NCBI GenBank assembly: GCA_018221105.1
Contig: JAAOYA010000005.1
Coordinates: 1 to 64,000, forward strand
From: Candidatus Woesearchaeota archaeon
GTDB lineage: Archaea > Nanobdellota > Nanobdellia > Woesearchaeales > JAAOYA01
Direction of reading: 5' to 3'
Length of the DNA stretch: 64,000 bases
Shown: positions 42,757 to 64,000 of the stretch, piece after piece
Layout of the letters: each line of letters opens with the position of its first letter
How positions within the stretch are numbered: the first letter of the stretch is position 1
Program-made: the position numbers and the translations under genes
Notes under the pieces: generated by a model
What the model was told of the DNA's origin: nothing
The model's database searches: none
Seen by the model: the letters and a program-made list of their open reading frames with translations, nothing else

Positions 42757-42767
42757 CTGTTGAACCT

Positions 42768-43200: not shown

Positions 43201-43231
43201 ATAAAACTTTTTAGGAAAAGGAGGTTTTGTT

Positions 43232-43843: not shown

Positions 43844-43863
43844 TTAAAAGGAGGTGTGTTGTT

Positions 43864-44499: not shown

Positions 44500-44519
44500 A
44501 AAAAGGAGGTGATACTATA

Positions 44520-45005: not shown

Positions 45006-45068
45006 TAAAATCGGTTGTACAAGATTTTGAAAGCTTAAACCTTAACAAAGAATGCGGAGGGTGAGAAA

Positions 45069-46220: not shown

Positions 46221-46271
46221 CAGATAAAAAAATGTTGTCTTTTTTAAGGTGAAGAAATTAACATTGAACTA

Positions 46272-46312
46272 TTCGGTGTCACTCAACATTACTGGTGTAG
46301 TGTGACATCGAA
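46272..46312 (+). ncRNA. Intercistronic hairpin
   Basis: TTCGGTGTCAC (46272-46282) pairs with GTGACATCGAA (46302-46312), an 11-bp stem followed by CTTTTTCTTT. May be a terminator or processing site between the lipoprotein and the next gene. Confidence 0.5.
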
Positions 46313-46334
46313 CTTTTTCTTTAAGGAGTCAATC

Positions 46335-47651: not shown

Positions 47652-47693
47652 ACTTTAACAACAATTTGCAAAAACAATGAAAGGAGCGTTATT

Positions 47694-48344: not shown

Positions 48345-48379
48345 GAAAAAAACTCGTTTAACTGAAAGGAGATTATATC

Positions 48380-48739
48380 ATGCATTTGTTAGAGAAAATC
48401 ATCAATAACCCTTTAATCGCAATTTCTATCATCGCCGGCGTCATCGCCTTTTTTGGCATCGGAATATTTCTGGCCTACTTTCCTCAGCGCCGCCTTAGAG
48501 ACCAGCACGTGCTGATTCGCTGCTTGATATCTCTTTGCAGCACTGCTTTTATCATCCTTTCTATCTCGTGCGTCATCACCTTTCTTAACCAATACTTCTT
48601 TAGCAAGCCTATGGGTTTTGAGCACAAAGCCATCGCTGTCGGCATAGGCCTGGCAATATGTTTTTCCACCACTGTCTTTGGAGCTTTTTCGGCTCGCCAA
48701 GAAGAAGTATCGATGGCAGAAGAGAAGAGTTACGCGTAA
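48380..48739 (+). CDS. Three-helix membrane protein, unknown
   Basis: A 119-residue protein with hydrophobic segments at about 14-34, 47-68 and 82-101. GAAAGGAG before ATG. Ends one transcription block; a GC-rich hairpin follows. Confidence 0.6.
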   Translation: MHLLEKIINNPLIAISIIAGVIAFFGIGIFLAYFPQRRLRDQHVLIRCLISLCSTAFIILSISCVITFLNQYFFSKPMGFEHKAIAVGIGLAICFSTTVFGAFSARQEEVSMAEEKSYA

Positions 48740-48769
48740 GCAATATAATTCACAATAAAATCCCTAGCG

Positions 48770-48803
48770 CGCGCGGCAAACATGACATTTTGTTTGTCGC
48801 GCG
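48770..48803 (+). terminator. GC-rich hairpin after gene block
   Basis: CGCGCGGCAAAC (48770-48781) pairs with GTTTGTCGCGCG (48792-48803), 12 bp. It is followed by ACTAACTTTTT, similar to the ACTTT run after hairpins at 52688 and 54726. Confidence 0.5.
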
Positions 48804-48831
48804 TTACTAACTTTTTATTTGGAGGTTGGCC

Positions 48832-49050
48832 ATGAAAAAAGAACGTAAGGTTTATTGGAGTGGTCAACTGCCTGATGAGGAGTTGGATCGCTTGAAAAAA
48901 AAGCATGGTGAAGGACCTTTTAAAGTTGTTAAAACAAGTACTTCAAAATCAACAAATCCTCCACCTAGGAAGCTTCCGTACGTTTGTTTTATCGATGAAA
49001 ACGGCAAAGAAGTGCACATGCCAATGTGTACTTTCATTTTTTGTCAATAA
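48832..49050 (+). CDS. Small basic soluble protein, unknown
   Basis: A 72-residue protein: charged N-terminal half (YWSGQLPDEELDRLKKKHGE), Pro-rich linker and a short beta-rich end with two Cys. ATG 6 bases after GGAGG. Confidence 0.55.
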   Translation: MKKERKVYWSGQLPDEELDRLKKKHGEGPFKVVKTSTSKSTNPPPRKLPYVCFIDENGKEVHMPMCTFIFCQ

Positions 49051-49336
49051 TAATCTATGCGCTCTTTTTTCGCGTAAGTTTTTTATATTACTTCATGAGT
49101 ACTAATTGCCCTATAATATTCACTTAATAAAAAACTGTTTTCTGCAATTGCAATGAACTCTCGCGCTTGAGCAAAAGCCTGCCAATCGCCTCATTGCTTT
49201 ATAGCAGAACAAAACCCTTGTTAGTAGCTTCAAACTAAACTGTTGTTGTCAAAAGCAAGACTTGTAAACAATGCGGAAAACCCGAAAAACGTTGTATGAA
49301 TTCTAATAGTTAATACTATGAAAGGAGGTTTATATT
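49051..49336 (+). promoter_or_regulatory. Gene-free gap with GGAAAACCCGAAA motif
   Basis: No ORF. TTTTTTATATTAC at 49079-49091 could be a TATA box. GCGGAAAACCCGAAAAACG at 49273-49291 repeats the motif seen at 39953/39975 and 58815/58826, and AAAGGAGG (49321-49328) leads into the next small ORF. Otherwise I see nothing definite. Confidence 0.35.
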
Positions 49337-49468
49337 TTGAAAAGCTCGATTAAAAAGTTCAAGGTTGGTGCTTTGGAGTACTGGAGCGAGCAAGGTAAAG
49401 CGACAGCAATATTGTTGTTTGCTATCTTGGTGGTTCTGGCAATACCTTATGGTTTTTTTCTCAAGTAG
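49337..49468 (+). CDS. 43-residue single-helix membrane peptide
   Basis: Starts at TTG eight bases after AAAGGAGG. Amphipathic basic N-terminus then one transmembrane helix (residues 24-41), ending FFLK. Confidence 0.55.
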   Translation: MKSSIKKFKVGALEYWSEQGKATAILLFAILVVLAIPYGFFLK

Positions 49469-49475
49469 TTTTTGT

Positions 49476-49649
49476 GCGCTTAGCACGGCAACATTTCATA
49501 GGCAATGGTTTCCTTGATGGGTTTTCTATGACCCAAAGGTCTTTTCCTAAAGGAACCTTTCAAACTCCCCAAGGTCCGGCCACTTTCTCTCCCCTTCCAT
49601 AGGAGAGTCCCCACCTGACCTTTTGGAATGCCTTTGTCGTGCTAAGCGC
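49476..49649 (+). ncRNA. Structured RNA domain, 174 nt
   Basis: Closed by a 16-bp helix: GCGCTTAGCACGGCAA (49476-49491) with TTGTCGTGCTAAGCGC (49634-49649), one G-U pair. Inside are TCATAG/CTATGA, TTCC-TAAA-GGAA, CTCTCC/GGAGAG hairpins and a long-range CCAAAGGTC/GACCTTTTGG helix, giving a multibranched fold. No ORF with a ribosome site lies in it. Unknown family; could be a riboregulator or an independent RNA. Confidence 0.7.
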
Positions 49650-49676
49650 TACCCAAAACAAAGGAGGTAGACTTTA

Positions 49677-49940
49677 ATGAACGCGAGTGCAGTAGTGTTG
49701 GTTTATCCAACTGATGTAAACGTGCAGGCTAAAGCTCATGATTTTGAAAGTGCTGGCTTGCGCACTGTTGCTGTTGGCAATCACGCAGTGGTGATGAGAG
49801 ATGGCAAACAACAAAGAGTGTCAGATGTTATCACAAAACAAGTGGCAGAGGATTACGCTGCTAAAGAAGTGTTAGTGATTATTGCTAACACACACCCCTA
49901 CATTCCCTCAAAGGTTGACTGGGATAGAAGAAGGAGGTAA
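49677..49940 (+). CDS. Small alpha/beta protein, unknown
   Basis: An 87-residue protein (VVLVYPTDVNVQAKAHDFES...AVVMRDGKQQRVSDVI) ending in a run of Arg (DRRRR). AAAGGAGG before ATG. Follows the structured RNA by 27 bases, so the RNA may be its leader. Confidence 0.55.
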   Translation: MNASAVVLVYPTDVNVQAKAHDFESAGLRTVAVGNHAVVMRDGKQQRVSDVITKQVAEDYAAKEVLVIIANTHPYIPSKVDWDRRRR

Positions 49941-49946
49941 AGTCTT

Positions 49947-50153
49947 ATGATTGGGGGAATTGTTTGTACAGATTGTGGTCAGTCCAAGAGCACCGCAAGT
50001 AATTGCGATCGCTGTAATAGAAAGGTATGTCCTGACTGTGTCAGAAAATTTAGCGATGATGAAAGGCTTCGCTGTAACTCATGTCACAAGTACGTTGAGA
50101 AAAACGGTCCTGACTTTTCAAACAGTGCGGTAAACCAATGTGAAAGGGGGTGA
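49947..50153 (+). CDS. Small zinc-finger protein
   Basis: A 68-residue protein with five C-x2-C type pairs (VCTDCGQ, CDRCNRKVCPDC, CNSCHKY), like a FYVE/RING-style double zinc finger. Likely a nucleic-acid or protein-binding module. AAGGAGG ribosome site lies inside the end of the previous gene. Confidence 0.6.
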   Translation: MIGGIVCTDCGQSKSTASNCDRCNRKVCPDCVRKFSDDERLRCNSCHKYVEKNGPDFSNSAVNQCERG

Positions 50154-50158
50154 AGTTG

Positions 50159-50362
50159 ATGACTGGTTATAACTGCAAGGCCTGTAAAACAGAAAACGCC
50201 AAACCAGTAGAGTGCCAGTCGCTTATTTGTCAAAAACAAGGTTGCACCGCTTGTTTTGTCGTTTCAAATGATGACTTGCGACGGTGTCCTGCGTGTGCTG
50301 AAATTCATCAAAGAGAGTTCGATATAGCCACGCAGAAAAAACCTTTGTCTGTAAGAGTCTAA
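50159..50362 (+). CDS. Small zinc-finger protein
   Basis: A 67-residue protein with CKACK, CQSLICQKQGCTAC and CPACAE, a second zinc-finger protein directly after the first. ATG at 50159 chosen; GGGGGTGA precedes it and the GTG at 50150 lies within that site. Confidence 0.6.
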   Translation: MTGYNCKACKTENAKPVECQSLICQKQGCTACFVVSNDDLRRCPACAEIHQREFDIATQKKPLSVRV

Positions 50363-50416
50363 GAAAGGAGGAACAAACTACTTTTAACAACCTTTTAACT
50401 CTTGTAGGAGATGACA

Positions 50417-50605
50417 ATGACACAACATTGGAAAACCTGCCCATTCTACAGGACACATGATCAAAGTGGTTGCAACAGTAAAAGAATGTACGAAGAAGGG
50501 CTTGGTCCTGCCAGTCGTTGCAAAACTTGCCCTTACAACAAAAGCTTACAAAATAATTTAGGAGGAGGTGCTATAACAAAAAACTTGCACGATAGACGCT
50601 ACTAA
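50417..50605 (+). CDS. Small Cys-rich protein
   Basis: A 62-residue protein with CPFY, GCNSK and CKTCPYN, suggesting one metal site. Third Cys-rich small protein in a row. TAGGAG precedes the ATG by seven bases. Confidence 0.5.
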   Translation: MTQHWKTCPFYRTHDQSGCNSKRMYEEGLGPASRCKTCPYNKSLQNNLGGGAITKNLHDRRY

Positions 50606-50637
50606 AAAAAACAATAATTTTAAGGAGGAAACAAACA

Positions 50638-50877
50638 ATGGCAAAAGTGGACTTACGTGAAATAAAAAAGATCGATCTTCTCGTATCGGATGAAACTGAT
50701 GTTGCTCTTTTCATCGAAAACCTAAAGACAGAAGGTCTTTCCGCCCACACCGATACCAGAGAAAATGGTAAAAGATGTATTGTTATTGAACCTGATGGAA
50801 TGGATTTTGTCAGTGCAATTGGAGAAAGAAGTGTTAGGCACTTTCTCAAACAACCAGGAGCCATATTCGAAAGATAA
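50638..50877 (+). CDS. Small soluble alpha/beta protein, unknown
   Basis: A 79-residue protein, charged, no membrane segment (LREIKKIDLLVSDETDVALF...). AAGGAGG before ATG. Confidence 0.55.
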   Translation: MAKVDLREIKKIDLLVSDETDVALFIENLKTEGLSAHTDTRENGKRCIVIEPDGMDFVSAIGERSVRHFLKQPGAIFER

Positions 50878-50892
50878 AGGAGGATTGACGTT

Positions 50893-51168
50893 ATGAATAT
50901 TGCCAACGAACGAGAAGGACCATTCAATGTTTCAGATATTGAATTTGGGCCTTTCAATGGCATTGTTACAAAACTGCTACGTAATTACGTGGTAGTTCAC
51001 TGTAATAGCATCCAAGGAACTTCTGTTACTGTTTCACTAACTTCCGAAAGTTGGGATGGTGGAGAAGGAGGTTATCCTACTAAAGCAGGCCAGCCTGTTG
51101 TTGTCCGAAATGTTCTTATTCATAAAAAAGGAGCACGGGCAAAAAACGCCAGAGTAGTCTGTCAGTAA
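50893..51168 (+). CDS. Small beta-rich protein, unknown
   Basis: A 91-residue protein with regular beta-strand pattern (FNGIVTKLLRNYVVVHCNSI...PVVVRNVLIHKKGARAKN); could be an OB or SH3-like barrel. AAAGGAGG before ATG. Confidence 0.55.
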   Translation: MNIANEREGPFNVSDIEFGPFNGIVTKLLRNYVVVHCNSIQGTSVTVSLTSESWDGGEGGYPTKAGQPVVVRNVLIHKKGARAKNARVVCQ

Positions 51169-51175
51169 AGAACAC

Positions 51176-51247
51176 AGCAAACAGCAAGCAATAACGTTTT
51201 TTCTAGCAAACAGCAAAGGAGCAAGAAAATGCCAAGCAAAACAGCAA
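51176..51247 (+). repeat. Three short direct repeats, about 30-bp period
   Basis: AGCAAACAGCAA at 51176-51187 and 51205-51216, and AGCAAAACAGCAA at 51235-51247. They surround the ribosome site and first codons of the next gene, so could bind a regulator or be chance low complexity. Confidence 0.4.
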
Positions 51248-51645
51248 ACACTATGACGCCTATTGAAGCAGTATTCGAAGACATCATGCATTTTGCAGAA
51301 GAAAAAAGGGGCGAGGGAAATTTTTCAGGATTGTTAATGCAAACCTGGAAAAATAAAGTCGTAAGTTCTGGTCTAATATCATCATCAAAAGACCAAGAAT
51401 ATCTCAACCCTCTTGTTGACTTATTCTTAGGAGATCTGCCATCAGATTTTCTGGATCGGGTGTGGAATGACTTGGAGAACCATGATCTGTCAACAAAAAA
51501 CCTTTTGATGATATCCAGAAACTGTACATGCTTGAAAGTTTGCAAGGCGGCAACTAATCTTTTGTGCTTTCGCAAAGGAAAAGGTTTGCTGTCAGAATCT
51601 GAGCTTCAAGAGTTGGAACTTGTTGAATTTCTTCAACGAGAATAA
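51229..51645 (+). CDS. Helical (HEAT-like) protein, paralog of the gene at 51748
   Basis: A 138-residue helical protein. LSTKNLLMISRNCTCLKVCK matches LSNQSLLLISKYCDVSSVRL in the 229-residue protein that follows, so the two share a helical repeat. AAAGGAGC before ATG. Confidence 0.6.
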   Translation: MPSKTANTMTPIEAVFEDIMHFAEEKRGEGNFSGLLMQTWKNKVVSSGLISSSKDQEYLNPLVDLFLGDLPSDFLDRVWNDLENHDLSTKNLLMISRNCTCLKVCKAATNLLCFRKGKGLLSESELQELELVEFLQRE

Positions 51646-51747
51646 CTTAAGATAAAAAAATTGAAACTCGTTCTAGCTCATAAAAATATACTATTTACAA
51701 CTTGCAATTCGCGAATTTAAAATATTGTTATAAGGAGGGAGTGAACA

Positions 51748-52437
51748 ATGCAAAAAGTATTCTTGGAAGATAGAATCCGTCATATGTTGGAAAACTGCGA
51801 GTTAAGAAAAAACTTTTCGCGGTTGACTAAGATGCTTAATACTCTGATCTCAAAACCTGGAGCGCTTTTGGGATTGCAGACCAATCCTACAGAGCTGCTC
51901 AAAGATCAAAGTATTCCTGCAGCGGTGCGCGCCAAACTCTTAGAAGTTGTTGGCGGGCGTCATGTGATGGCCTTGCTTAAACTTGGGGGGCTTTGTGCGG
52001 AGGCAAAACTTATTAAGTGGAACTCTTTGAGTGTTGACTTTTCACAACTCTCAAACCAGTCACTGCTTTTAATCAGCAAGTACTGTGATGTGAGCAGTGT
52101 TCGACTGGCAGCCTTTCGAAAATTTCATTATAGGAGGGCTTGCGAGTATCAGGTTATCAAAAGTGAAGTGGATTATTATTACGAGTTGTTTGAAGAGTTT
52201 CTCACATGCCAAGATTATAGTGATGATACAATTATAGAATTGTGGAATTTTTTGACGCATTTTACCAGTGATCCTGAAAATTCCCTACTATTGTCAATTC
52301 ACGAATCCTGTCCTGTCAAAACGATTAGGGATTGGGCCGGTCAGAAACTTGTGGTTCGTCGGCGTCAAGAAAGACTGGGAAGATATGAAAGGGCACAGTT
52401 TGCAGAGCAAACCCTTCTAGCTCTTGTCCAGTCATAA
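51748..52437 (+). CDS. Helical (HEAT-like) protein
   Basis: A 229-residue soluble protein composed of helices in HEAT-like pairs; shares a repeat with the preceding gene. Own AAGGAGGGAGTG ribosome site and an AT-rich gap (51646-51735) that could contain a promoter. Confidence 0.6.
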   Translation: MQKVFLEDRIRHMLENCELRKNFSRLTKMLNTLISKPGALLGLQTNPTELLKDQSIPAAVRAKLLEVVGGRHVMALLKLGGLCAEAKLIKWNSLSVDFSQLSNQSLLLISKYCDVSSVRLAAFRKFHYRRACEYQVIKSEVDYYYELFEEFLTCQDYSDDTIIELWNFLTHFTSDPENSLLLSIHESCPVKTIRDWAGQKLVVRRRQERLGRYERAQFAEQTLLALVQS

Positions 52438-52481
52438 AAAGAGAGCTGTCAACAGCTGTTTTTTGAAAGGAGTCATGTTTT

Positions 52482-52619
52482 ATGACGCGCAAAAATCGAG
52501 AGTCCACTGCAACTCGCAAGTCCAAAGGTCATCGTCCAACAGCACGCAACAGGATGGCGCATAGAACCACCCAACATTCACGTGGTAGACGCCGTAAACC
52601 TGTAGACAATAACAGCTAG
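52482..52619 (+). CDS. 45-residue very basic peptide
   Basis: MTRKNRESTATRKSKGHRPT and onward: about one third Arg/Lys, no hydrophobic core, like a nucleic-acid-condensing or ribosomal-protein-like tail. GAAAGGAG upstream; an AGCTGT/ACAGCT hairpin with T-run (52446-52464) precedes it and AACAGCT-AGA-AGCTGTT (52611-52627) overlaps its stop. Confidence 0.5.
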   Translation: MTRKNRESTATRKSKGHRPTARNRMAHRTTQHSRGRRRKPVDNNS

Positions 52620-52647
52620 AAGCTGTTAAGGGTTTACCCCCGCAAAA

Positions 52648-52728
52648 GCGAAGCGCGCCTCAACCTAAAAAATTGGGGCGTGCTTCGCACCTAACTTTGA
52701 AAACACGAAAGCAACAGCTTTTTTTTCA
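52648..52728 (+). terminator. Double hairpin terminator cassette
   Basis: GCGAAGCGCGCCTC (52648-52661) pairs with GGGGCGTGCTTCGC (52675-52688); then CTAACTTTGAAAAC, then AAAGC-AACA-GCTTT with a T-run (52708-52726). A second copy of this design is at 54694-54762. Confidence 0.6.
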
Positions 52729-52769
52729 AATATCAAAAAAAATTTATTAAAATAAAGGAGGGTTTTGTT

Positions 52770-53189
52770 ATGTTATCATTTATTGAAACAGCAAATTCTA
52801 TTCTACCTATTTATCTTATGGTAACGACTGTTTTTTTGATGGCTTGTTGTGCTGTCATCATGAGTCGGCATTACCAAAGCAAGTTACAAAAGTGTTTTGC
52901 TGTCAGCGTCGGTCTTGCCATGGGAATATTAGCATTGCTTGGCGGAATGTTATCTGTTGATCAATTAATGGTAAGCAATCCGCCAATACCTCACGAGGTT
53001 CAATCTTTAGGGTTTTCAGATGCCCAAGAAGGTATCTTGTACGTTGTCTTTGTCAGAGTAAACAATGGCGTACCTTACCGGGCTGGTCCAATGCTAAAAG
53101 CAAAGGATCTTAGCGCAACACAAAAACCAAAGACTGCCATTAAACCTTCATCGAAAACTCCTATAATAGTTCGTGGCAGTCCAGGATAA
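52770..53189 (+). CDS. Two-helix membrane protein with soluble tail
   Basis: A 139-residue protein: hydrophobic helices at about 11-33 and 44-64, then a basic, Pro-rich tail (AKDLSATQKPKTAIKPSSKT). AAAGGAGG before ATG; an AT-rich TTTATTAAAATAA just upstream may be a promoter. Confidence 0.6.
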   Translation: MLSFIETANSILPIYLMVTTVFLMACCAVIMSRHYQSKLQKCFAVSVGLAMGILALLGGMLSVDQLMVSNPPIPHEVQSLGFSDAQEGILYVVFVRVNNGVPYRAGPMLKAKDLSATQKPKTAIKPSSKTPIIVRGSPG

Positions 53190-53203
53190 AAGGAGGTTAT
53201 ACA

Positions 53204-53419
53204 ATGGAACGGGTAATTGTTAGCCTGATTCTTATCGTTATTGGCGGATTGTTAGTTTACAAAAACTTCGACTATATGAGGGCTCCCTTTCTTGTCTTTG
53301 ATGGTCATGCGGGCCCTATTGATCTATTTTATAGCTTCTTGTTTTATGCTGGATTCACTATGCTATTTGGTGGCGCAGCCATAGGGGCTGTAGCAATGTT
53401 TCATGCAATTCCAAAATAA
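53204..53419 (+). CDS. Two-helix membrane protein, unknown
   Basis: A 71-residue protein with hydrophobic segments at about 4-22 and 45-66. AAAGGAGG before ATG; 14 bases after the previous stop. Confidence 0.55.
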   Translation: MERVIVSLILIVIGGLLVYKNFDYMRAPFLVFDGHAGPIDLFYSFLFYAGFTMLFGGAAIGAVAMFHAIPK

Positions 53420-53431
53420 AAGGAGGGTGTG

Positions 53432-53758
53432 ATGCTATGGTCAGGGTACTTTTTTAGTCTGTTTCTCATCTTCATAGGCATACAAACCGCGAGAGCTTAC
53501 AAATCCTACGCTCGTACACCAATTTTCGAGGCCAAAATCTTTGAAATAAAAGGTTGGTCAGTGTTTTGGTTTGTTGGTGGCGGACTCACAACTTGGGGCG
53601 TTATAGGCCTTTGGTTTCCAACATTTCAGGCCATGGCATACATTGCAATAGTAGGATTGGGTGTTTTTGCAGGCATCATGATCGCGTCTCGTAATCAACA
53701 CCGAGCAAAACATAAGCTTCGTCGCCAAGCAAAACAAAACCAGCAAATGGAGGGTTGA
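53432..53758 (+). CDS. Two/three-helix membrane protein with basic tail
   Basis: A 108-residue protein; hydrophobic segments near residues 2-18, 42-60 and 70-88, ending in a basic stretch (NQHRAKHKLRRQAKQNQQ). AAAGGAGGGTGTG leads to ATG at 53432. Confidence 0.55.
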   Translation: MLWSGYFFSLFLIFIGIQTARAYKSYARTPIFEAKIFEIKGWSVFWFVGGGLTTWGVIGLWFPTFQAMAYIAIVGLGVFAGIMIASRNQHRAKHKLRRQAKQNQQMEG

Positions 53759-53761
53759 GTT

Positions 53762-53968
53762 ATGGAAAAACTTGGTGCTAACGGAATTTTAGGACTGCTT
53801 ACTTTCATAATTTTTGGTATTTTGTTTTTCTTGCCAAAAAAACCTTCAACCCCTGACTGGGCACTCTGGGTTATTGGCGCGATAGCATTAATGGGGCTTG
53901 TGTTTTGCATCGACCCATTAATCAAAACATTCTTTCCAGGATGGCACAAAAGAATAACAGGCGAGTAA
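53762..53968 (+). CDS. Two-helix membrane protein, unknown
   Basis: A 68-residue protein, hydrophobic segments 8-22 and 35-52. GGAGGGTTG site overlaps the end of the previous gene. Confidence 0.5.
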   Translation: MEKLGANGILGLLTFIIFGILFFLPKKPSTPDWALWVIGAIALMGLVFCIDPLIKTFFPGWHKRITGE

Positions 53969-53992
53969 AAAAAAAGAAATGGAGGGGAGACT

Positions 53993-54187
53993 ATGGAAAG
54001 CAAACTGGTACAAGCACTGTTTCTTTTGGTAGTGGGAGTGGTGTTTTTTGTTGGCCTGCTCTTTGAAGAAAACATCAAAAAGTTTTTCAGGCGCGCACGC
54101 GACATTATAAGCGTGTTGTCGGTTCTACCGTTTATTCGCCTTTTTCGAGAAGATCCTGATGATCGTTGTGAATATGAAGAAGGATAA
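53993..54187 (+). CDS. Single-helix membrane protein, unknown
   Basis: A 64-residue protein with one transmembrane helix (5-24) and a basic then acidic tail (RARDIISV...EDPDDRCEYEEG). TGGAGGGG before ATG. Confidence 0.5.
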   Translation: MESKLVQALFLLVVGVVFFVGLLFEENIKKFFRRARDIISVLSVLPFIRLFREDPDDRCEYEEG

Positions 54188-54203
54188 AAAGGAGGGGAGT
54201 GTC

Positions 54204-54479
54204 ATGCAAAAGTTTCGTATTCTAAAGAGGATTTTACTTGGATTGTGGGAGCTAACAGTTATCGTTTGGTGGACCTTCGTATTCGTAGTGCTGTTCATTT
54301 GCGGGGCTTACGAGTATGACGACTGCCCAAGATCTCAAAAAAGACTTCTAACAAAAGGAGGTGTTAAATTTGTTTTCAGACAATATTTTAATCACAGCTT
54401 TAATACATCTTTTCATAATATTTATTGGCGTAGTTATGTGTCGGGGTACAATAAAAGAGTCTCCTTACACTGGCTATAA
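54204..54479 (+). CDS. Single-helix membrane protein overlapping the next gene
   Basis: A 91-residue frame with one strong transmembrane helix (13-36). AAAAGGAGGGG before ATG. After DDCPRSQKRLLT it reads through the next gene's ribosome site and overlaps that gene by 110 bases; the last 37 residues look like shadow sequence, so a stop may have been lost. Confidence 0.45.
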   Translation: MQKFRILKRILLGLWELTVIVWWTFVFVVLFICGAYEYDDCPRSQKRLLTKGGVKFVFRQYFNHSFNTSFHNIYWRSYVSGYNKRVSLHWL

Positions 54480-54687
54480 AACACCTTTTACTTTAGGCGT
54501 GTTCTGCAGCGCTGGTTTGTTTAGCTTTTCAATAATGGCTATGGCTATTAGTACTGCCAAACCACTTCCTACTTTCACGGCTTTTTTCTGGTTGACAGAG
54601 TGCTACATCCTTGGCTTGATAATAACTATTACACTCTACATATTTTTTCTCAAGTTAGAACAAAAAAATAATGCTTCATCACTCTAA
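54370..54687 (+). CDS. Three-helix membrane protein, faintly SdpI-like
   Basis: A 105-residue protein starting at TTG after AAAAGGAGG. Hydrophobic segments at about 8-25, 44-65 and 75-97; the loop TIKESPYTGYKTPFTLG recalls the G-x-R-T-P loop of SdpI-family immunity proteins, which is weak evidence only. Confidence 0.5.
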   Translation: MFSDNILITALIHLFIIFIGVVMCRGTIKESPYTGYKTPFTLGVFCSAGLFSFSIMAMAISTAKPLPTFTAFFWLTECYILGLIITITLYIFFLKLEQKNNASSL

Positions 54688-54693
54688 TTTTAT

Positions 54694-54762
54694 GAGCGCA
54701 CTCACAAAACAGCGTGTGCTGCGCTCTCCAACTTTGAAAATTCAAAAGCAAATGCTTTTTTT
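54694..54762 (+). terminator. Double hairpin terminator cassette
   Basis: GAGCGCA/TGCGCTC stem (54694-54726), then CCAACTTTGAAAA, then AAAAGCA-AA-TGCTTTT with T-run (54744-54761). Same design as 52648-52728. Confidence 0.6.
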
Positions 54763-54806
54763 ACAAATAAAAAATAATAATTACACTTTTTATGGAGGGT
54801 AAAATC

Positions 54807-55058
54807 ATGAATAATTTTATTATTGGACAATTTGCAGTATCAGTTATTTTGATGTTTACAATGGCATTTTCATTAAAAAGTGAAAGGGGAGGACCAGAAG
54901 ATAGTGTTCTAAGCGTTTGTGGCATCGTATGGCTTGTCGCACTAGTGACGGGTGTTGGCGCAATGTTCATTTTTAAAGACCCTTCTCTTCTTATAATTTC
55001 AACAATTGTTTGTGCCTTCCTGCCTGTTATGCCAATAATAGTTGGCGAAGGAGCGTAA
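54807..55058 (+). CDS. Three-helix membrane protein, unknown
   Basis: An 83-residue protein with hydrophobic segments at about 3-18, 35-55 and 58-78. TGGAGGG before ATG at 54807. Confidence 0.5.
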   Translation: MNNFIIGQFAVSVILMFTMAFSLKSERGGPEDSVLSVCGIVWLVALVTGVGAMFIFKDPSLLIISTIVCAFLPVMPIIVGEGA

Positions 55059-55101
55059 AACTGACTAGAACCAATAACCATTTTTTGTGGGGGTGTTACC
55101 T

Positions 55102-55228
55102 ATGGCTAGAGGGAAAAAAGGGGTGGCCTGGAAGACCTAAAAAGTGTTCTAATGAGCCAGGCTCTAAGGCGTGCAAGAAAACGCGCAAAAACAATGGGAT
55201 GTATTGCGTTAATTGCGCTTACGCATAA
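55102..55228 (+). pseudogene. Small Cys-rich basic protein with apparent frameshift
   Basis: The ATG frame gives MARGKKG and then stops at 55138. Removing one G from the GGGG run (55121-55124) joins it to GWPGRPKKCSNEPGSKAC followed by CVNCAYA, a plausible basic zinc-binding protein of about 41 residues with an AT-hook-like GRPKK. It is either a broken gene, a sequencing error in a homopolymer, or a programmed frameshift. Confidence 0.45.
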
Positions 55229-55243
55229 GGGAGGTATTATATT

Positions 55244-55513
55244 ATGGGATTAATTATTCGATTATTGGCTTTGGCTGCATTGTTACTCGTCATGCTTGTC
55301 GCTCCCGCCAGCAACCTATTACTTTTGTACTTGACAGCCAACATTCTAATAGAAAAAAGCCAGTATGCCATCATATTAATACCTGGCAGTCTATCATGCT
55401 TTCTTTTCTTAAACGCTCGGCTGTCACACGATGAGTTTTGGGATTGTTGGAGGCCAAAAAGCATAAGTGCTTATATTAAAGTGCTCAAGTATGTCAGGGT
55501 AAAAGTCAAATAA
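55244..55513 (+). CDS. Two-helix membrane protein, unknown
   Basis: An 89-residue protein with two hydrophobic segments (about 4-29 and 31-58) and a basic tail (YIKVLKYVRVKVK). GGGAGG before ATG. Confidence 0.5.
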   Translation: MGLIIRLLALAALLLVMLVAPASNLLLLYLTANILIEKSQYAIILIPGSLSCFLFLNARLSHDEFWDCWRPKSISAYIKVLKYVRVKVK

Positions 55514-55545
55514 TAATCCTTAGATTTTAATGATGGGGGTGAATT

Positions 55546-55728
55546 ATGACGTTTAAAGATTTAATTGCAGGCTTTTTACTGGCAACACTTTTCTGGGCTG
55601 CTGCGGAACTTGCAGTTTTGGGTTATTGTATCGATGTTGGAGTGATCACCATAGAACAAGAGTCATCACAACCTTCAAAGCAAGAAGACACCATCAAAGC
55701 GTTGCCAAGTCAACTAAAACTCGTTTAA
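55546..55728 (+). CDS. Single-helix membrane protein, unknown
   Basis: A 60-residue protein with one membrane helix (6-28) and a polar tail. GATGGGGGTGA before ATG. Confidence 0.5.
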   Translation: MTFKDLIAGFLLATLFWAAAELAVLGYCIDVGVITIEQESSQPSKQEDTIKALPSQLKLV

Positions 55729-55744
55729 AAGAAAGGACTTTGTT

Positions 55745-56086
55745 ATGAAGGAATTGTTAATCATTCAAACAGCATCCTTTGCTTGTGCGTGGATATTTTT
55801 TGCTTTTCTGGTTTTCGGCTCTTTTAGCCCTGTCAACTATTATGAAGAAGAAGAGGTAAGCTTGGCAAGGCGAATAACCTGGCTTGCTGGCTGCTTTCTA
55901 ACTTCTGCCGGTTTATTTATCGGGGCCATTTTATCACTTATCATTGGCATCGGGCTCGTCTATACACCCTACAACTACGTTGTGGGTTATGAACTTTTTA
56001 CCAGTGTGATGCTTTTTAGTGCTATCGTGTGGTTTTTGGGTATTCAACCAGATCCTATCGATCAGCTAAGGCCTTTTCACTATTAA
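55745..56086 (+). CDS. Three-helix membrane protein, unknown
   Basis: A 113-residue protein with hydrophobic segments at about 6-26, 45-70 and 84-101 and an acidic loop (YEEEEVSLARR). AAAGGAC before ATG. Confidence 0.55.
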   Translation: MKELLIIQTASFACAWIFFAFLVFGSFSPVNYYEEEEVSLARRITWLAGCFLTSAGLFIGAILSLIIGIGLVYTPYNYVVGYELFTSVMLFSAIVWFLGIQPDPIDQLRPFHY

Positions 56087-56120
56087 CAACTCACTTTTGT
56101 GAGAGAAAGGAAAAAAAGCC

Positions 56121-56264
56121 ATGAGCCAGGGTCTTGAGAACCATGTCTTTGATAAGTTGAAGTGCACCCTAGACTGTTGCGGATTATCAGATGAGGGGAA
56201 AAAGCGTGTAGCAGAGTTGTTAGTAATTACATTTTCCAGAGCTACTAAACAAAATCAAGAATAA
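56121..56264 (+). CDS. 47-residue soluble helical protein
   Basis: Short protein with three Cys (CTLDCCG) and two helices. AAAGGAAAAAAAGCC before ATG. Last gene of module 1. Confidence 0.45.
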   Translation: MSQGLENHVFDKLKCTLDCCGLSDEGKKRVAELLVITFSRATKQNQE

Positions 56265-56276: not shown

Positions 56277-56340
56277 AAGAAGCTTTGTATGTTTGGCTTC
56301 TTTTTTCGTTTTTTGTTTTCTATATTGAAAATAAAAACAT
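56277..56340 (+). terminator. Module 1 terminator, repeated at 63702
   Basis: AAGAAGC (56277-56283) pairs with GCTTCTT (56296-56302), then a T-run. The hairpin plus TTTCTATATTGAAAATAA tail is nearly identical to 63702-63771. Confidence 0.65.
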
Positions 56341-56428
56341 TCAAAAATCGGTTTTTGTGCGGAAGAAGTTGGAATACCATGAAAAAACATCGAATCGGTT
56401 TATTACTGTTTGGTTGTAAACGCGTTAG

Positions 56429-56481: not shown

Positions 56482-56841
56482 ATGACCGACATCTTAAAAG
56501 ACATTCAAGAAGCTAAAACAATCACATTAAAAGAATTAATCGGCGAAATCAACACATTAGTAAGTGAAAGACAACATCTCTCGAAAACATTACTTGATGA
56601 AATAGAAAAGATTTCTATGGCTGTCAACAGCGTATTAGTAAACGCTCGCGCAGTGCAGCCAACACCAGAACACTTAAAACTTGAACAAAAAAAAATCGAG
56701 CTAGAAGAACTTAAACTGCAAGAAAAACTCAATTGTTGGCGCGACATAGCACTATTAAAACGCGAACTACGCGAGGCCAGCAAAGAATTTAGGGGAGCTG
56801 AAAGTCGCTCACAATTAATTGACAGCCTATTAGAAAAATAA
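56482..56841 (+). CDS. Coiled-coil protein preceding the ATPase
   Basis: A 119-residue all-helical coiled-coil protein (LKDIQEAKTITLKELIGEIN..., then LKLEQKKIELEELKLQEKLN). It has no AAAGGAGG site and its codon use resembles host genes. It ends 5 bases before the ATPase gene and is probably its partner. Confidence 0.65.
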   Translation: MTDILKDIQEAKTITLKELIGEINTLVSERQHLSKTLLDEIEKISMAVNSVLVNARAVQPTPEHLKLEQKKIELEELKLQEKLNCWRDIALLKRELREASKEFRGAESRSQLIDSLLEK

Positions 56842-56846: not shown

Positions 56847-58793
56847 ATGCAATCAAGCCTAACAGTCGAAGAACTATGTCGAAAACTAAAACCTGTTTTT
56901 GGCGACAAAATAGACAAGTTATACCTAAAGTATTCTTTAAGCGTTGATCGTGAAGAGCGCACAGAAATAGAACAAGCATTAAACGCGTTATATCACAAGC
57001 ACATCAACGAAGAGATGATAACAGAAAAAGTACTTCTTGAACCCCCTTCTAAGGACATCAGTGACGGCCAATACCCTTTAGGCGTCATTCATTACGCCAA
57101 AAAAAACTTGTACCCCTTTTATCTGCGAGAAAAAGATTGGGTTCGACACGTTTGCGTCAGTGGAATGAGCGGCAGTGGAAAAACAACATTCGCCTATAAT
57201 GTGTTAGGGGCTTTCGTGCTAAAAAAGAAACCATTCATAGTTTTCGATTGGAAAAAAAGTTTTAGGCCACTACTAAAAACAAATGAAAAAATGCTATTTT
57301 TTACTGTAGGCAACGAACGAGTAACAAATTTTTTCAAACTAAACATTAACAAACCACCAACAGGTGTTGGACCAAAAGAATGGATAGGAATACTTTGTGA
57401 CATCATCAACGAAAGCTACTTTGCAAACTTTGGAGTTCATAAGATATTATCAGAAACACTCGATCAAGCATTCACAGATTTTGGAATATACAAAGGCAGT
57501 GAAAACTATCCAACATGGCTACAAATAAAAGATCGCTTAGAAGAAAAAGCCAACAACACAAAAGGCCGGCCAAACCGTGAAAACGAATGGTTAGCTTCGG
57601 CGTTAAGGATAGCTCATTCACTAACTTTTGGCGCTTTTGGCGAGAGCACAAGCTACAAAGGAAAAGATTTGATAGGTGTTGAAGACCTACTAACAAATCA
57701 AGTAGTCTTCGAACTAGACTCGCTCTCAACTAGTGAGAAAAAATTCTTTTGTGAATTCATTCTAACTTATATTTACAAAGCAAAAAAAAGCAATCCAAAA
57801 GCACTAACAAACACTTTTGAAAGCGCTATAATAGTAGACGAAGCACACAACATATTCTTAAAAGAAAGACCATCATTTCTAACAGAAACAATCACAGACA
57901 TGATCTATCGAGAACTACGAGAGTACGGCATAGGACTCATTTGTTTAGACCAACACATAAGCAAACTATCAGAAGTCGTCGCTGGAAACAGCGCTTGCAA
58001 CATAGCATTTCAGCAAATGCTACCACAAGACATAGAAACAGTCAGTGGCATAATGCAATTAAAAGATCACAAAAAATACTTTTCAATGCTGCCAGTAGGA
58101 ACAGCAATAGTAAAACTAGCAGAGCGTTATTACAGACCATTCTTAATCAAAGTACCGTTCATCGACATCAAAAAAAACAGATATTCGGACGAAGAACTAG
58201 AAAGTTTAATGAGCGAGCGAATGAAATTTGCTCGCAGAATGGTATTATTTGATCAAAGTGTAAAACCAGAAAAACTAGTAGAAAACACGAAAAAATTAGA
58301 CGGAATACTAAAAAGTCAAGGCATCAAACCAACAAACGAATTCTTAGAGACAGAAAGCAACACAATGCTAGCACAACAAAGCATAACACAAAAACCACTC
58401 ACTTTTGAACTAGGTAATGACATGATAGGAAAAATAGTCGACAAAATAAGCCAAAATCCCATCAAAACAACACCAAAAGAACCAATAAGTGACGAATTAG
58501 AACTAGAAAATGATAACGTTTATAAATATCCTATCGACAATAGTATACTTACAAATAAAATATCAATAGAAGAAGAACTCTTCCTCTCAACCCTACAAGG
58601 TGAGACCGAAGGTCTTCCAACGACACTACTATACCAAAAACTAAACAGTCTATCAACACGCAAAGCCAACACGATAAAGAAAAAACTTATCGAACAAGGC
58701 AAGGTAGAAGAAGTGGTCGAAAAAACCGCGAGCGGTTGGAAGAAAAAACTTTCACTAACCGAAATCGGAGTACAAATTCTAGAAAAACAATAG
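56847..58793 (+). CDS. HerA/VirB4-like P-loop ATPase (DUF87 type)
   Basis: A 648-residue ATPase of the HerA/FtsK/VirB4 superfamily. N-terminal helical part, Walker A GMSGSGKT at 106-113, IVFDWKKSFRPLL as the second strand, Walker B AIIVDEAHNIF at about 328-338, sensor region YGIGLICLDQHISKLSE, and a C-terminal winged helix (LSTRKANTIKKKLIEQGKVE) after a disordered linker. Such ATPases move DNA or drive conjugation/packaging. It is the only island protein with a clear family. No strong ribosome site; host-like codon use, so its history may differ from its neighbours. Confidence 0.88.
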   Translation: MQSSLTVEELCRKLKPVFGDKIDKLYLKYSLSVDREERTEIEQALNALYHKHINEEMITEKVLLEPPSKDISDGQYPLGVIHYAKKNLYPFYLREKDWVRHVCVSGMSGSGKTTFAYNVLGAFVLKKKPFIVFDWKKSFRPLLKTNEKMLFFTVGNERVTNFFKLNINKPPTGVGPKEWIGILCDIINESYFANFGVHKILSETLDQAFTDFGIYKGSENYPTWLQIKDRLEEKANNTKGRPNRENEWLASALRIAHSLTFGAFGESTSYKGKDLIGVEDLLTNQVVFELDSLSTSEKKFFCEFILTYIYKAKKSNPKALTNTFESAIIVDEAHNIFLKERPSFLTETITDMIYRELREYGIGLICLDQHISKLSEVVAGNSACNIAFQQMLPQDIETVSGIMQLKDHKKYFSMLPVGTAIVKLAERYYRPFLIKVPFIDIKKNRYSDEELESLMSERMKFARRMVLFDQSVKPEKLVENTKKLDGILKSQGIKPTNEFLETESNTMLAQQSITQKPLTFELGNDMIGKIVDKISQNPIKTTPKEPISDELELENDNVYKYPIDNSILTNKISIEEELFLSTLQGETEGLPTTLLYQKLNSLSTRKANTIKKKLIEQGKVEEVVEKTASGWKKKLSLTEIGVQILEKQ

Positions 58794-60475: not shown

Positions 60476-60888
60476 TCAATTCGACGTGAAAACCCGGAGG
60501 ATTTTTCAAATGGTCTCCTGTTTAAACGGGCTCTAAACCCGTAAAAGAGTACAGTATTAGAAGATCTCCGAAGCGGCCTGCAATCCAAAAAGGTCAAACA
60601 AGGACTAAACATTTGAAAGGGGGAATGAGGTGCGAAGAATTCTACTACTCCACATGCCTAACGCAGATATCCTAGGCCTTGCATGAAAGATGTCAGCGCT
60701 TTCCGCTGCAAAGAGTAGACACCAACTCACTAGGAGAGATTGCCTTGAACAACAAGACCTCTCCTATTACCTAAACCATAACCCACAACATCAAGGAAAA
60801 ATACACCAAAGAAAAAAAGGCTCTACTTTTCTCAACCTTGCCCCAGTAACTGTTTTTTTCTGGGCTAAAGAGAAAGGAGGTAATGGAC
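60476..60888 (+). ncRNA. 413-base hairpin-rich gap with tiny ORFs
   Basis: Contains hairpins ACGGG-CTCTAAA-CCCGT (about 60525-60541), CAGCG-CTTTC-CGCTG (about 60693-60707) and AGGAGAG/CTCTCCT (60731-60764). A GGAGG-led 8-codon ORF (MVSCLNGL, 60510-60536) lies directly against the first hairpin, like a leader peptide. No convincing larger gene. Confidence 0.4.
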
Positions 60889-61347
60889 ATGAAAAAGTTG
60901 TCCATTATCTTGTTGGCGCTTGCCCTCGCACTTGTGATGACGATACCCGCGATGGCAGCCATGACCCAGGACATGATCAGAGGTCCGACTGCCAGTGGCA
61001 CGGCCCTCCTGACCGCGCAAGAAGCCCTCGACATCGGAATGAGCGCGGAGATCTCCCGCGATATGATCGCACCCTCATATGAAGCCATTAATCCGCTCGT
61101 CAAAGAAGTGGTACTGGCTGAAGAGGAAATCCTCGACACCGGACGAATCCAAGCAACCTTGGAGGTGTTGTCGCCTGTTACCGAAGTGTTTTTCGCCTCT
61201 GGTTCCGACGTCATCGCCATTGACGGCCTCCTTTACGGCGCTCTACCCCAAGCAACCTCGGAGGTGTTGCCGGCCTGTACTCTTGCAGTGAACACCCTTC
61301 GTAATGTCATGGCAGGCACCGCCGAGATGGCCTTTGACACCTCCTAA
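60889..61347 (+). CDS. Exported protein with signal peptide
   Basis: A 152-residue protein with a Sec signal (KKLSIILLALALALVMTIPA, cleavage near AMA-AM). The mature part is Ala/Glu/Ile-rich with a partial internal repeat (QATLEVLSPVTEV and QATSEVLPACTLAV). AAAGGAGG before ATG at 60889. Ends before a strong intrinsic-type terminator. Confidence 0.6.
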   Translation: MKKLSIILLALALALVMTIPAMAAMTQDMIRGPTASGTALLTAQEALDIGMSAEISRDMIAPSYEAINPLVKEVVLAEEEILDTGRIQATLEVLSPVTEVFFASGSDVIAIDGLLYGALPQATSEVLPACTLAVNTLRNVMAGTAEMAFDTS

Positions 61348-61495: not shown

Positions 61496-61681
61496 ATGGG
61501 TAAAAGAGAAGACATGGGCGGATATGTCCAGTACAATAATCCCATAGATGGAACCACTCGCCAGTATCCAAAAGATGAAGCAGGCAATACCAATGAGTCC
61601 ACAAGTCAGACAATTCATCACGAAAGCGGTAATGTAACAGACTCTCGTGGCGACATCGTCGGCAATGTTAAGGACAAATAA
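61496..61681 (+). CDS. 61-residue polar protein
   Basis: Gly/Asp/Asn-rich, no hydrophobic segment (GGYVQYNNPIDGTTRQYPKD). GAGAGGAGGTGA before ATG. Unknown. Confidence 0.5.
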   Translation: MGKREDMGGYVQYNNPIDGTTRQYPKDEAGNTNESTSQTIHHESGNVTDSRGDIVGNVKDK

Positions 61682-61789
61682 AATAATTATTTTTTTGTTT
61701 TTGGAAAAACTTTGAACTCTTAATTAATTGTGAAATTAAAAATTAGCACGGCTTTTTTGTGCTTTAAATATTGTAAAAACTACTTTTGA

Positions 61790-62220
61790 CGCGTCTCAAA
61801 ACTTTTTGGGATGCTTCTTTTTTTCTTGTGTTGCTTTCTAACACTCTTTGTGAGCTTGGTGCGATGAGAGTTGCGGGCTCTTGTTAAAGGTTCAACTCCT
61901 TACAAGCAAAAAGTGTTTTGAAAGGGGCTTTTCCTCCTTAAGTTGTTGATAGGAAAAGTTCGGTTGCGACCACTCCGGGTTGAGGGTGTCGGGAAAGCCT
62001 TGCTTTTCATGATTCCTCCAAGGCAGGGCTCTCCCTTCACCCAACACAAAATAAGTTATGGGTGCTGTGCGGAATCTAATATAATGTGAAAGGGTTTCCG
62101 TTAGTTTGCAGAGGACTGGAGACGGCCTCTTAAAAAAATAATATGTTGTGAAATTCTTTCCTGGGCTTAGCCTGTCAGGTCTGCATCCTGACCTGAGACT
62201 GTTCCGTACAGCACCTGTTT
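61790..62220 (+). ncRNA. Large structured RNA, left part
   Basis: No convincing protein gene. Contains tRNA-like element 1 (61854-61907) inside an AACACT/AGTGTT helix (61840-61917), hairpin CTTTTCCT/AGGAAAAG (61928-61958), GCCTTG/CAAGGC (61997-62024), and a 14-bp helix GGTGCTGTGCGGAA/TTCCGTACAGCACC (62061-62215) enclosing AGAGG/CCTCT and GTCAGG/CCTGAC hairpins. Confidence 0.65.
61854..61907 (+). ncRNA. tRNA-like element 1 without normal D arm
   Basis: GCTTG (61854-61858) pairs with CAAGC (61903-61907). After GCGAT comes an anticodon-like arm GAGAG-TTGCGGG-CTCTT (61866-61882, loop triplet GCG after T33), then a T-arm-like AAGG-TTCAACT-CCTT (61887-61901). The D arm is missing. Its GCTTGGTGC head is shared with element 2 at 62744. 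Whether it is charged or used is unknown. Confidence 0.5.
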
Positions 62221-62700
62221 ATACCCTTTGACCGATCAGACCACCTGAACCTCGCGGGCCCTCTACAAGGGAGAAAAGAGGATAAGTCTTGGTGGATCGA
62301 AGAGTCTGATAGGGAACAATAATCTTATGAGGTGGCTGGCAGTTAAAAGATCTTAGCAATTCGTTCTTCTCGCACCCGCCAACCAACCAGTTGGCTTGCG
62401 AAATAAAGCGCTGCAATCGCCTGCCATAAGGTGATAACCGAGCCATATTAAACTGTGACTTCCCAACAGAAAAAAGGCCTTTATGCCCTTCTTCTGGAGC
62501 CTTCGAAACATAGGGGGTTATCTGGGGATGACAGTCTTGTGGGAAGTAACATAAAAATAAAAAAAAGGCGCTCGGTCTTGACAGCCCAACGCGTTGCCAA
62601 AGAACTATACTAACTCGCCAGTCACCTCTCCAATTACCCCCAGCAGCACCCCCAGACCCGGAGCATAAAGCAAAGTGCATTGTGCTCCGGGTCAACACTT
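62221..62700 (+). ncRNA. Large structured RNA, middle part
   Basis: Nested ATCAGACCACC with GGTGG...GTCTGAT near 62232-62321, hairpin CCAAC-CAACCA-GTTGG, and two crossing helices GATAACC/GGTTATC (about 62432-62522) and ACTTCCCA/TGGGAAGT (about 62458-62546) that would form a pseudoknot. The segment ends with a 14-bp hairpin GACCCGGAGCATAA/TTGTGCTCCGGGTC (62655-62693). A 159-codon minus-strand frame exists but looks like a shadow. Confidence 0.6.
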
Positions 62701-62736
62701 GCTTTTGAGAGCTTTCGGGCCAGCAGAAAAAAAAGT

Positions 62737-62804
62737 TTTTGGTGCTTGGTGCTATAAGAGGTTCATACCCTCTTACTAATAGGGTTCGAATCCCTTACCA
62801 AAGC
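62737..62804 (+). ncRNA. tRNA-like element 2 with CAT anticodon loop and tiny D region
   Basis: Acceptor TTTTGGT (62737-62743) with ACCAAAG (62797-62803), or GCTTGGT (62744-62750) with ACCAAAGC plus a bulge. Anticodon arm AAGAGG-TTCATAC-CCTCTT (62756-62774) with T33 and triplet CAT. T arm TAGGG-TTCGAAT-CCCTT (62780-62796) with a canonical loop. Only 13 bases (GCTTGGTGCTATA) replace the D arm. Not a standard tRNA. Confidence 0.6.
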
Positions 62805-63026
62805 TTTAGCTAGCAAGGAGGCTGCTTCTTCCACCATCTCTCCTAGCTGGCACCCTTGTGGATGGCCAAAGGCTCTTAAGAGAAAGGGTGATTTCTCAGT
62901 TCTCAAGAAAAAGGAGTCCTTGACCTCTCCTATTCTGCTTGAGATCTTGAGAAGTCTCTCCTGGTCCAGCGCTGACACCTCGGAATTTTTCTGCCGATTT
63001 CTTCGCCGGGGTGTCAGCGCGTTTTT
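62805..63026 (+). ncRNA. Structured RNA with terminator-like end
   Basis: AGCTAG/TAGCT, CACCCTT/AAGGGTG and TTCTCAAG/CTTGAGAA helices lead to a 15-bp hairpin GCGCTGACACCTCGG (62969-62983) with CCGGGGTGTCAGCGC (63006-63020), followed by GTTTTTC. Probably one RNA unit ending in a terminator. Confidence 0.6.
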
Positions 63027-63094
63027 CTAGCCATTACTTGCTATGTTTTTGGCCCCCAACAAAAGCGTTGCAAGTTTTTGGTAGTGGTTTATTT

Positions 63095-63149
63095 GCGGGC
63101 TTACAGGCACACCCCCTTACCAAGCGGCCACCCGTGCCTGTAAGCTCGC
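63095..63149 (+). ncRNA. 16-bp hairpin
   Basis: GCGGGCTTACAGGCAC (63095-63110) pairs with GTGCCTGTAAGCTCGC (63134-63149); A-rich and T-rich runs follow. Confidence 0.55.
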
Positions 63150-63229
63150 ACCTTAAAAAAAAGTTTTTTTTATGCAATTTTGAAAGAGTGGCCATCCCGT
63201 CATACGGGTTTTGTGTCTTAACATTCTCC

Positions 63230-63480
63230 TTCTTGTGAGGCGAAGCTGTCACTAGTCCCTTCTTCCGATCTTTTGACTGGTGAACGGTTAAAAGACACAC
63301 CCTCCTGTTATTGGGAACTCGAGGTCTACACCTTCCTTTGTGGCGGGGTGGCCGCTCATTCGATTAAAGGTGTGGTGGTGTCGCCAGAGAAAAAAAGCAG
63401 AAAGGAACTCGCTGCCTCTCTGTTGGAATGACGTCGCTGGCGGTACCACCGCTCGTTTGAGAAAAATCGCTGAAAACAAA
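63230..63480 (+). ncRNA. Structured RNA before the last island gene
   Basis: ACACCTT/AAAGGTGT (about 63327-63373) and a 14-bp helix GGTGGTGTCGCCAG (63374-63387) with CTGGCGGTACCACC (63437-63450) enclosing a GCAG/CTGC hairpin. Could be the leader of the gene at 63497 or the end of the large RNA. Confidence 0.5.
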
Positions 63481-63496
63481 AAAAGGAGGAAAACTA

Positions 63497-63703
63497 ATGG
63501 GTCATCATGATACAGATTGTGACAGTCCAAGGTTTCGAAGTGACCCTAGCATTTATGCTGGTGCTGGTGGTCTAAATCGCGATACTATAAAAACGTTCTA
63601 TGATCGCTGTACAGATTGTGGAGCTAAAACTGAGTTTAAAGTTAGTTGGGGCGATCTTAACACCTTTGAGCGGCTTTGTGTGAACTGTCGTGAAAAAAAA
63701 TAA
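63497..63703 (+). CDS. Small zinc-ribbon protein
   Basis: A 68-residue protein with CTDCGAKTEF and LCVNCREKK, a probable zinc ribbon of the CxxC-x(n)-CxxC type. AAAAAAGGAGG before ATG. Last gene of the island. Confidence 0.6.
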   Translation: MGHHDTDCDSPRFRSDPSIYAGAGGLNRDTIKTFYDRCTDCGAKTEFKVSWGDLNTFERLCVNCREKK

Positions 63704-63771
63704 GAAGCCTTTTGTATTTTGGCTTCTTTTTTTCACTATTTCTTTTCTATATTGAAAATAATTACTTGAAA
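63702..63771 (+). terminator. Module 2 terminator, repeat of 56277
   Basis: AAGAAGCC (63702-63709) pairs with GGCTTCTT (63721-63728), then a T-run and TTTCTATATTGAAAATAA, as at 56277-56340. The hairpin begins at the stop codon of the zinc-ribbon gene. Confidence 0.65.
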
Positions 63772-63782
63772 AAAAAGGTTTT

Positions 63783-64000
63783 TTAGCCAAACCAGCTTCC
63801 GAGTCCTACTTGTTTGTCTACTTCTTTGCCAAAATTATCCTCAAACCGAACTTTTGTCAACTCCAAAGATTGCCGCAGGTATGCTCCTACATTATATTGT
63901 TTAGCTAATGAAATTGAAGGCTCTAAATATTTTGCAATACTGCCCTCTGAAATTGTAAAAATAATTCTGCCGCCACAATTGGTGCATTTTCCAACTAGTG
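63783..64000 (-). CDS. polC: DNA polymerase D large subunit DP2, C-terminal end (partial)
   Basis: The minus strand ends with a frame reading GKCTNCGGRIIFTISEGS, KYLEPSISLAKQYNV, then LRQSLELTKVRFEDNFGKE and KQVGLGSWFG before TAA at 63783-63785. This matches the C-terminal zinc motif and helical tail of the archaeal replicative polymerase D large subunit. It marks a return to core chromosome. The rest of the gene lies beyond the window. Confidence 0.85.
   Translation of the reverse strand, partial: LVGKCTNCGGRIIFTISEGSIAKYLEPSISLAKQYNVGAYLRQSLELTKVRFEDNFGKEVDKQVGLGSWFG

Follow-up and report, generated by a model that had tools for sequence, protein, structure and literature searches.

A probable 1.7-kb structured non-coding RNA in a putative integrated element of a DPANN archaeon

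The 64,000-nucleotide (nt) stretch analysed here, referred to as the window, comes from a Candidatus Woesearchaeota archaeon (GCA_018221105.1, contig JAAOYA010000005.1, positions 1 to 64,000 of the forward strand). Near its right end lies a 7.4-kb segment (56.3-63.8 kb) that is bounded by the conserved palindrome TTTTCTATATNGAAAATAA, encodes a HerA-like ATPase and carries, as its right-hand cargo, a structured non-coding region (61790-63480, + strand) that is read here as one large RNA. From left to right, this segment contains a conserved 119-amino acid (aa) gene (56482-56841, +), the ATPase gene (56847-58793, +), and several small genes, followed by the RNA. The ATPase serves as marker of the element; it was identified by Pfam DUF87 and HerA chains in the PDB, and 65 related loci were found. 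At almost every locus compared, a relative of the 119-aa gene adjoins the ATPase. Two small genes, both on the + strand with GGAGG before the ATG, flank the structured region, namely a 61-aa open reading frame (ORF) upstream (61496-61681) and a 68-aa ORF downstream (63497-63703) whose product contains a zinc-ribbon-like CxxC...CxxC arrangement and had no match in Pfam. A TATA-like box TTTAAATATT (61764-61773, +), a possible archaeal promoter, precedes the first hairpin by about 25 nt, and a terminator-like hairpin follows the 68-aa gene (~63703-63737); both were read from the sequence.

An initial sequence-only reading had claimed that no convincing protein gene exists in 61790-63480, and codon scoring of the ORFs likewise found no credible one. 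All tested ORFs within the region had negative scores on the chromosomal codon table, on which chromosomal genes score +0.22 to +0.34, and two of them reached just +0.03 to +0.05 on the element's own table. The longest ORF, of 159 aa on the minus strand, is without a ribosome-binding site. A protein-coding explanation of the region was ruled out by this codon usage. When compared with dinucleotide-preserving shuffles, which were also used for the related arrays and coding controls described below, the fold energy gave z = -7.3 for 61790-62560 and z = -13.1 for 62560-63480. Folding the entire region gave z = -10.5 for the + strand and z = -10.6 for the - strand (minimum free energy -615 versus -550 kcal/mol). 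Four strong stems were counted, against a shuffle mean of 0.15 and a maximum of 1 (20 shuffles), and a looser cut-off gave 10 stems against a mean of 4.5 and a maximum of 9 (40 shuffles). The claim of a stem density beyond chance was borne out by stem counts and fold energy alike. A genome control, with z derived from regression on dinucleotide content, covered 360 kb of the 1.15 Mb (contig 10 as a whole and parts of the other ten contigs). There, 62481-63820 scored -4.1 against a mean of -0.2 (standard deviation 0.6), and the top stretch from any other contig scored -1.7; no other part of the 360 kb scanned is as structured as this region. The earlier remark that no known RNA family was recognisable agrees with the Rfam search, in which no covariance model matched at the gathering score and only unrelated eukaryotic and plastid models, read as noise, appeared up to E = 5.

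The predicted fold opens with a 5' hairpin (GCGTCTCAAAAC...GGGATGC, 61791-61814), a multi-branched domain containing a first tRNA-like part (61826-62049), and a domain (62058-62216) closed by the 14-bp stem 62061-62074/62202-62215. A long hairpin GACCCGGAGCA...TGCTCCGGGTC (62655-62693) has 18-nt arms (62655-62672/62676-62693) that are 89% complementary. Further downstream are a long hairpin at 62969-63020 closed by 62969-62983/63006-63020, a hairpin domain at 63029-63087, and a long hairpin TGCGGGCTTACAGGCAC...GTGCCTGTAAGCTCGCA (63094-63150) with 17-nt arms (63094-63110/63134-63150) that are 94% complementary. A branched domain closed by a GTGGCC.../...GGCCGC helix (63186-63360) and a 3' domain (63370-63453) complete the list; all of these features are on the + strand. 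The sequence-only reading had proposed at least six domains with closing stems of 14-16 bp and had listed five such stems. Those at 62061/62202, 62655/62680, 62969/63006, and 63095/63134 were present as described, and the fifth, given as 63374/63437, corresponds to a predicted 16-bp helix that includes G-U pairs (63370-63386/63437-63453), whereas a sixth was not confirmed. A possible pseudoknot had also been suggested, for which the predicted fold offers no 6-nt loop-loop complementarity.

Two tRNA-like parts had been proposed as well, and they fared unequally. The second (62737-62804, +) was called as tRNA-Met(CAT) by ARAGORN, which gave no tRNA call of any kind on 300 shuffles of 61790-63480. 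It has acceptor, anticodon, and T arms and CAU in the anticodon position, as a normal tRNA does, but differs in its short D-arm, the lack of an encoded CCA, and the lack of an Rfam tRNA match (RF00005, E up to 5). It is tRNA-like rather than a normal tRNA gene. The first part (61846-61911, +), with GCG in the anticodon position, is weaker, having been recognised by eye and by partial identity to the second. The two share the D-region motif GCTTGGTGCNATNAGAG and a T-arm. Of the compensatory changes between them, only those located in the acceptor and T stems fit a plausible alignment register; the counts for the anticodon stem arose from a shifted one and were discarded.

The 7.4-kb segment appears to be an integrated mobile element with palindromic ends, its mobility being suggested by neighbours and relatives. 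Its ends carry the two copies of a 73-nt repeat, the left at 56284-56356 (+) with the palindrome TTTTCTATATTGAAAATAA at 56316, and the right at 63711-63783 (+) with the palindrome at 63743, ending at the stop codon of the polD large-subunit gene. Exact copies of the palindrome were found in the genome at these two ends only; one similar copy is found next to orc1 (contig position 70456), and weaker ones occur at a few other places. To the right of the segment, the contig encodes what appear to be the two PolD subunits and Orc1/Cdc6. The palindrome was also present near the ATPase in several related loci and is possibly a recombination or protein-binding site. Archaeal dif sites are 28-bp inverted repeats (PMC2958812), and a tie to Xer recombination would be a guess. 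The long element genes from ~40 kb to 63.7 kb differ from chromosomal genes in codon usage, and the G+C content of the element is higher than that of its surroundings. No integrase was identified, and no replication or transfer initiator or recognisable Rep protein was recognised in the element. Comparison of ten proteins with PHROGs revealed no phage structural genes, the sole packaging-related match being the ATPase P-loop, and the ATPase marker was absent from IMG/VR viral contigs. The ATPase was present in 35 of the 288 genomes of the order, and almost all of the 65 GTDB loci carry the label Woesearchaeota, Pacearchaeota, Nanoarchaeota, or archaeon. One locus with the same HerA element (JAOTSI010000042.1) is on a contig labelled Desulfobulbaceae bacterium, which is probably a binning error.

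A fold-outlier scan of the 65 ATPase loci, using the same regression as the genome control, ranked L083, L097, the 61790-63480 locus, and L080 highest. At least four related loci carry a hairpin array of their own. The shuffle z was -26.1 for L083 (8705-10110), -11.3 for L097 (12200-13720), -10.5 for L080 (10300-11740), and -6.6 for L099 (2335-3060), compared with -1.7 to -3.8 for coding controls. All four arrays lie on the ATPase strand, span 0.7-1.5 kb, and are non-coding, with longest ORFs of 66-91 aa. No DNA similarity between arrays was found beyond short chance, terminator, or ribosome-binding-site matches. L099 is a minimal 3-kb element: its array lies between palindromes at 48 and 3063 together with just two predicted genes, one of 141 aa and the ATPase gene. 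L083 contains two copies (9419 and 9656) of a two-hairpin unit in which the stems are kept and the loops are unrelated. Between the copies, the stems show one double change, from T-A to A-T, and two changes of the G-T/G-C type; this is direct evidence, if small, that pairing is under selection. Rfam micro-RNA matches in L083 were discarded as chance fits to long hairpins. Inside the L097 array is a tRNA (13261-13335, +) that Rfam accepts with a score of 51 bits and that has UUU in the anticodon position; its D-loop is without the usual GG and its CCA is encoded, and it is possibly a tRNA decoy. Downstream of the HerA ATPase in L073, ARAGORN called a tRNA with a UCA anticodon (tRNA-SeC; 4566-4638, +). 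Possible arrays in L086, L135, L143, and L082 were weaker or mixed with small genes. Two other candidates that ranked in the first scan were not counted: L119, whose short array (z -5.2) holds a 137-aa ORF, and L129, which showed no strong stems. L119 also contains two Rfam matches to the self-cleaving ribozyme Twister-P5 (13943-14025 and 14372-14456, +), ~2-2.5 kb downstream of its HerA ATPase.

The folding strand was identified from the mismatches within stems. A stem selected on the + strand tolerates G-U and not A-C, whereas palindromic DNA would show both equally. Stems were seeded with Watson-Crick pairs only and isolated mismatches of any type were bridged, so that G-T had no advantage. 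Across the five arrays (61790-63480 and the four related ones), 29 G-T, 5 A-C, and 22 other mismatches were bridged, against shuffle averages of 3.1, 2.8, and 11.1; the excess of G-T over A-C had p = 4e-5. A strict version of the test gave 13 G-T and no A-C, and 61790-63480 by itself gave 12 and 3. Since G-T mismatches exceed A-C, the + strand is the folding strand, and the simple reading is that it acts as RNA.

The missing Rfam match, the lack of a coding signal, the extreme fold energy, the G-T excess, and the related arrays support the earlier reading, according to which this DPANN archaeon has a non-coding RNA locus that is very large, structured, and outside the known families. That 61790-63480 is a real structured RNA locus is highly probable, and if it is, the RNA rather likely acts in trans. 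On balance, we lean towards a ~1.7-kb structured non-coding RNA of an integrated DPANN (Nanoarchaeia, Woesearchaeota-type) element. Such an RNA would be a stable transcript that starts from the TATA-like box at 61764, and it would act in trans for the element, not by encoding protein. Among possible modes of action, the likeliest would be that of a scaffold or sponge, as with the giant phage RNAs GOLLD and ROOL: the independent hairpin domains could assemble into a compact particle that possibly self-associates, while the tRNA-like parts might engage host tRNA-binding factors or ribosomes during replication or excision of the element. A scaffold or tRNA-factor mechanism specifically is a doubtful proposition. 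Because architecture was kept while sequence was lost, the arrays suggest that the folded bulk counts more than the particular letters.

Several observations weigh against this interpretation. The minus strand of the region folds well too, as would be expected of long stems. The predicted fold contains no loop-loop contacts that would support self-association, and no terminator-like hairpin separates 61790-63480 from the 68-aa gene. The majority of HerA-element loci are without a comparable array, so the array is an optional part of the element. Furthermore, no DNA homolog of the region was found in 353 genomes of the order, phages, and plasmids. A DNA search of 99 relatives (E limit 1) returned chance-level matches only, and of three pattern scans of viral contigs, one produced a single match to a short hairpin and another 102 hits for a 15-base motif, all taken as chance. 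Within the families of L083 and L097, searches with the arrays of these two loci recovered only the genomes themselves. No description of these elements or RNAs was found in the open-access literature.

The sequence-only reading had likened the locus in style to GOLLD and ROOL. These RNAs are found on mobile DNA near tRNAs and form RNA-only nanocages whose use is unknown (PMC12286853), while ARRPOF, an RNA of a Fusobacterium plasmid, forms a ring-like homodimer (PMC12641628). To the extent that sequence can show, the likeness is one of style and setting. GOLLD too is a giant non-coding RNA of many domains on mobile DNA, and ROOL is likewise large, structured, and carried by mobile DNA; GOLLD has tRNAs nearby or inside, and ROOL often lies close to tRNA islands (PMC12286853). 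On the matter of tRNAs, the region offers one tRNA-like part called by ARAGORN and not accepted by Rfam, and one weaker. The likeness did not extend to an Rfam match or a phage context. The 61790-63480 region is about twice the size of GOLLD and sits in an archaeal element with a HerA-like ATPase, in contrast to the phage or prophage setting of GOLLD, and the related archaeal arrays keep no sequence, whereas GOLLD has a conserved 3' region (PMC12286853). Unlike ROOL, the region shows no conserved core. ARRPOF is likewise a large structured RNA of a non-phage mobile replicon (PMC12641628), from which our locus differs in its archaeal host, in the absence of any sequence or Rfam match, and possibly in size and role. 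The RNA is a member of none of these three families. Because related elements carry versions of similar size and unrelated sequence, the evidence points to an undescribed archaeal counterpart of GOLLD and ROOL.

The best surviving alternative, although unlikely, is a replication or copy-number RNA needed in cis or trans, ARRPOF-like in style, rather than a host-directed particle. Arrays are missing from most ATPase loci, and those that exist have no sequence in common, which would be odd for a replication factor. Quite improbable is a giant 5' leader controlling the 68-aa zinc-ribbon-like gene. This gene begins 17 nt past the region on the same strand, and one transcript may hold both, as the terminator-like hairpin stands after the gene and not before it. 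A leader of 1.7 kb with a dozen domains would far exceed known ones; moreover, in L099 no gene follows the array, which runs up to the palindrome, and the arrays of other elements are not followed by the 68-aa gene. An equally low probability is given to a + strand that folds as single-stranded DNA, for example at an origin used by the element for replication, transfer, or packaging. The HerA-like DNA translocase would suit this explanation, the array adjoins the element end in L099, L083, and the 61790-63480 locus, and the G-T excess is permitted in single-stranded DNA too. Known single-strand origins are, however, one or a few hairpins and not 1.7 kb, the tRNA-like parts are meaningful only as RNA, and the element has no recognised initiator. 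A recently acquired, G+C-rich non-coding stretch that folds well by composition alone, with no functional structure, would fit the G+C content of the element and the mild structure of its other stretches in the genome control, but is largely refuted and very improbable, as dinucleotide-preserving shuffles never approach the observed fold, element coding regions of similar G+C reach just z -1.7 to -3.1, and chance offers no explanation of the mismatch asymmetry.

With the trans-acting RNA as the preferred reading, a broader and more speculative possibility is that giant hairpin-array RNAs form a class of their own on the HerA-ATPase elements of DPANN archaea. Their architecture would be kept while their sequence is replaced in each element, and selection would act on folded bulk, as a cage, sponge, or decoy, and not on a specific sequence. 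If so, each copy would be a private family invisible to Rfam-style searches, giant element-borne RNAs would be no bacterial oddity, and homology-based searches would overlook many of them. Several independent examples, including the two-gene 3-kb element, are available for testing function.

Additional features were observed elsewhere in the window. A 154-aa gene (60883-61347), whose product is predicted to be secreted, contains two copies of CCAAGCAACCTYGGAGGTGTTG (61146-61170 and 61249-61272), itself palindrome-like and thus repeated inside coding DNA. To the left of the HerA segment, 40000-56250 is a co-oriented run with many small genes and strong ribosome-binding sites; the products of ten of these small genes matched no Pfam family above the cut-off, and the run may be a second element. 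A tRNA-Phe gene is located at 14039-14138, and its length of 100 nt would fit an intron.
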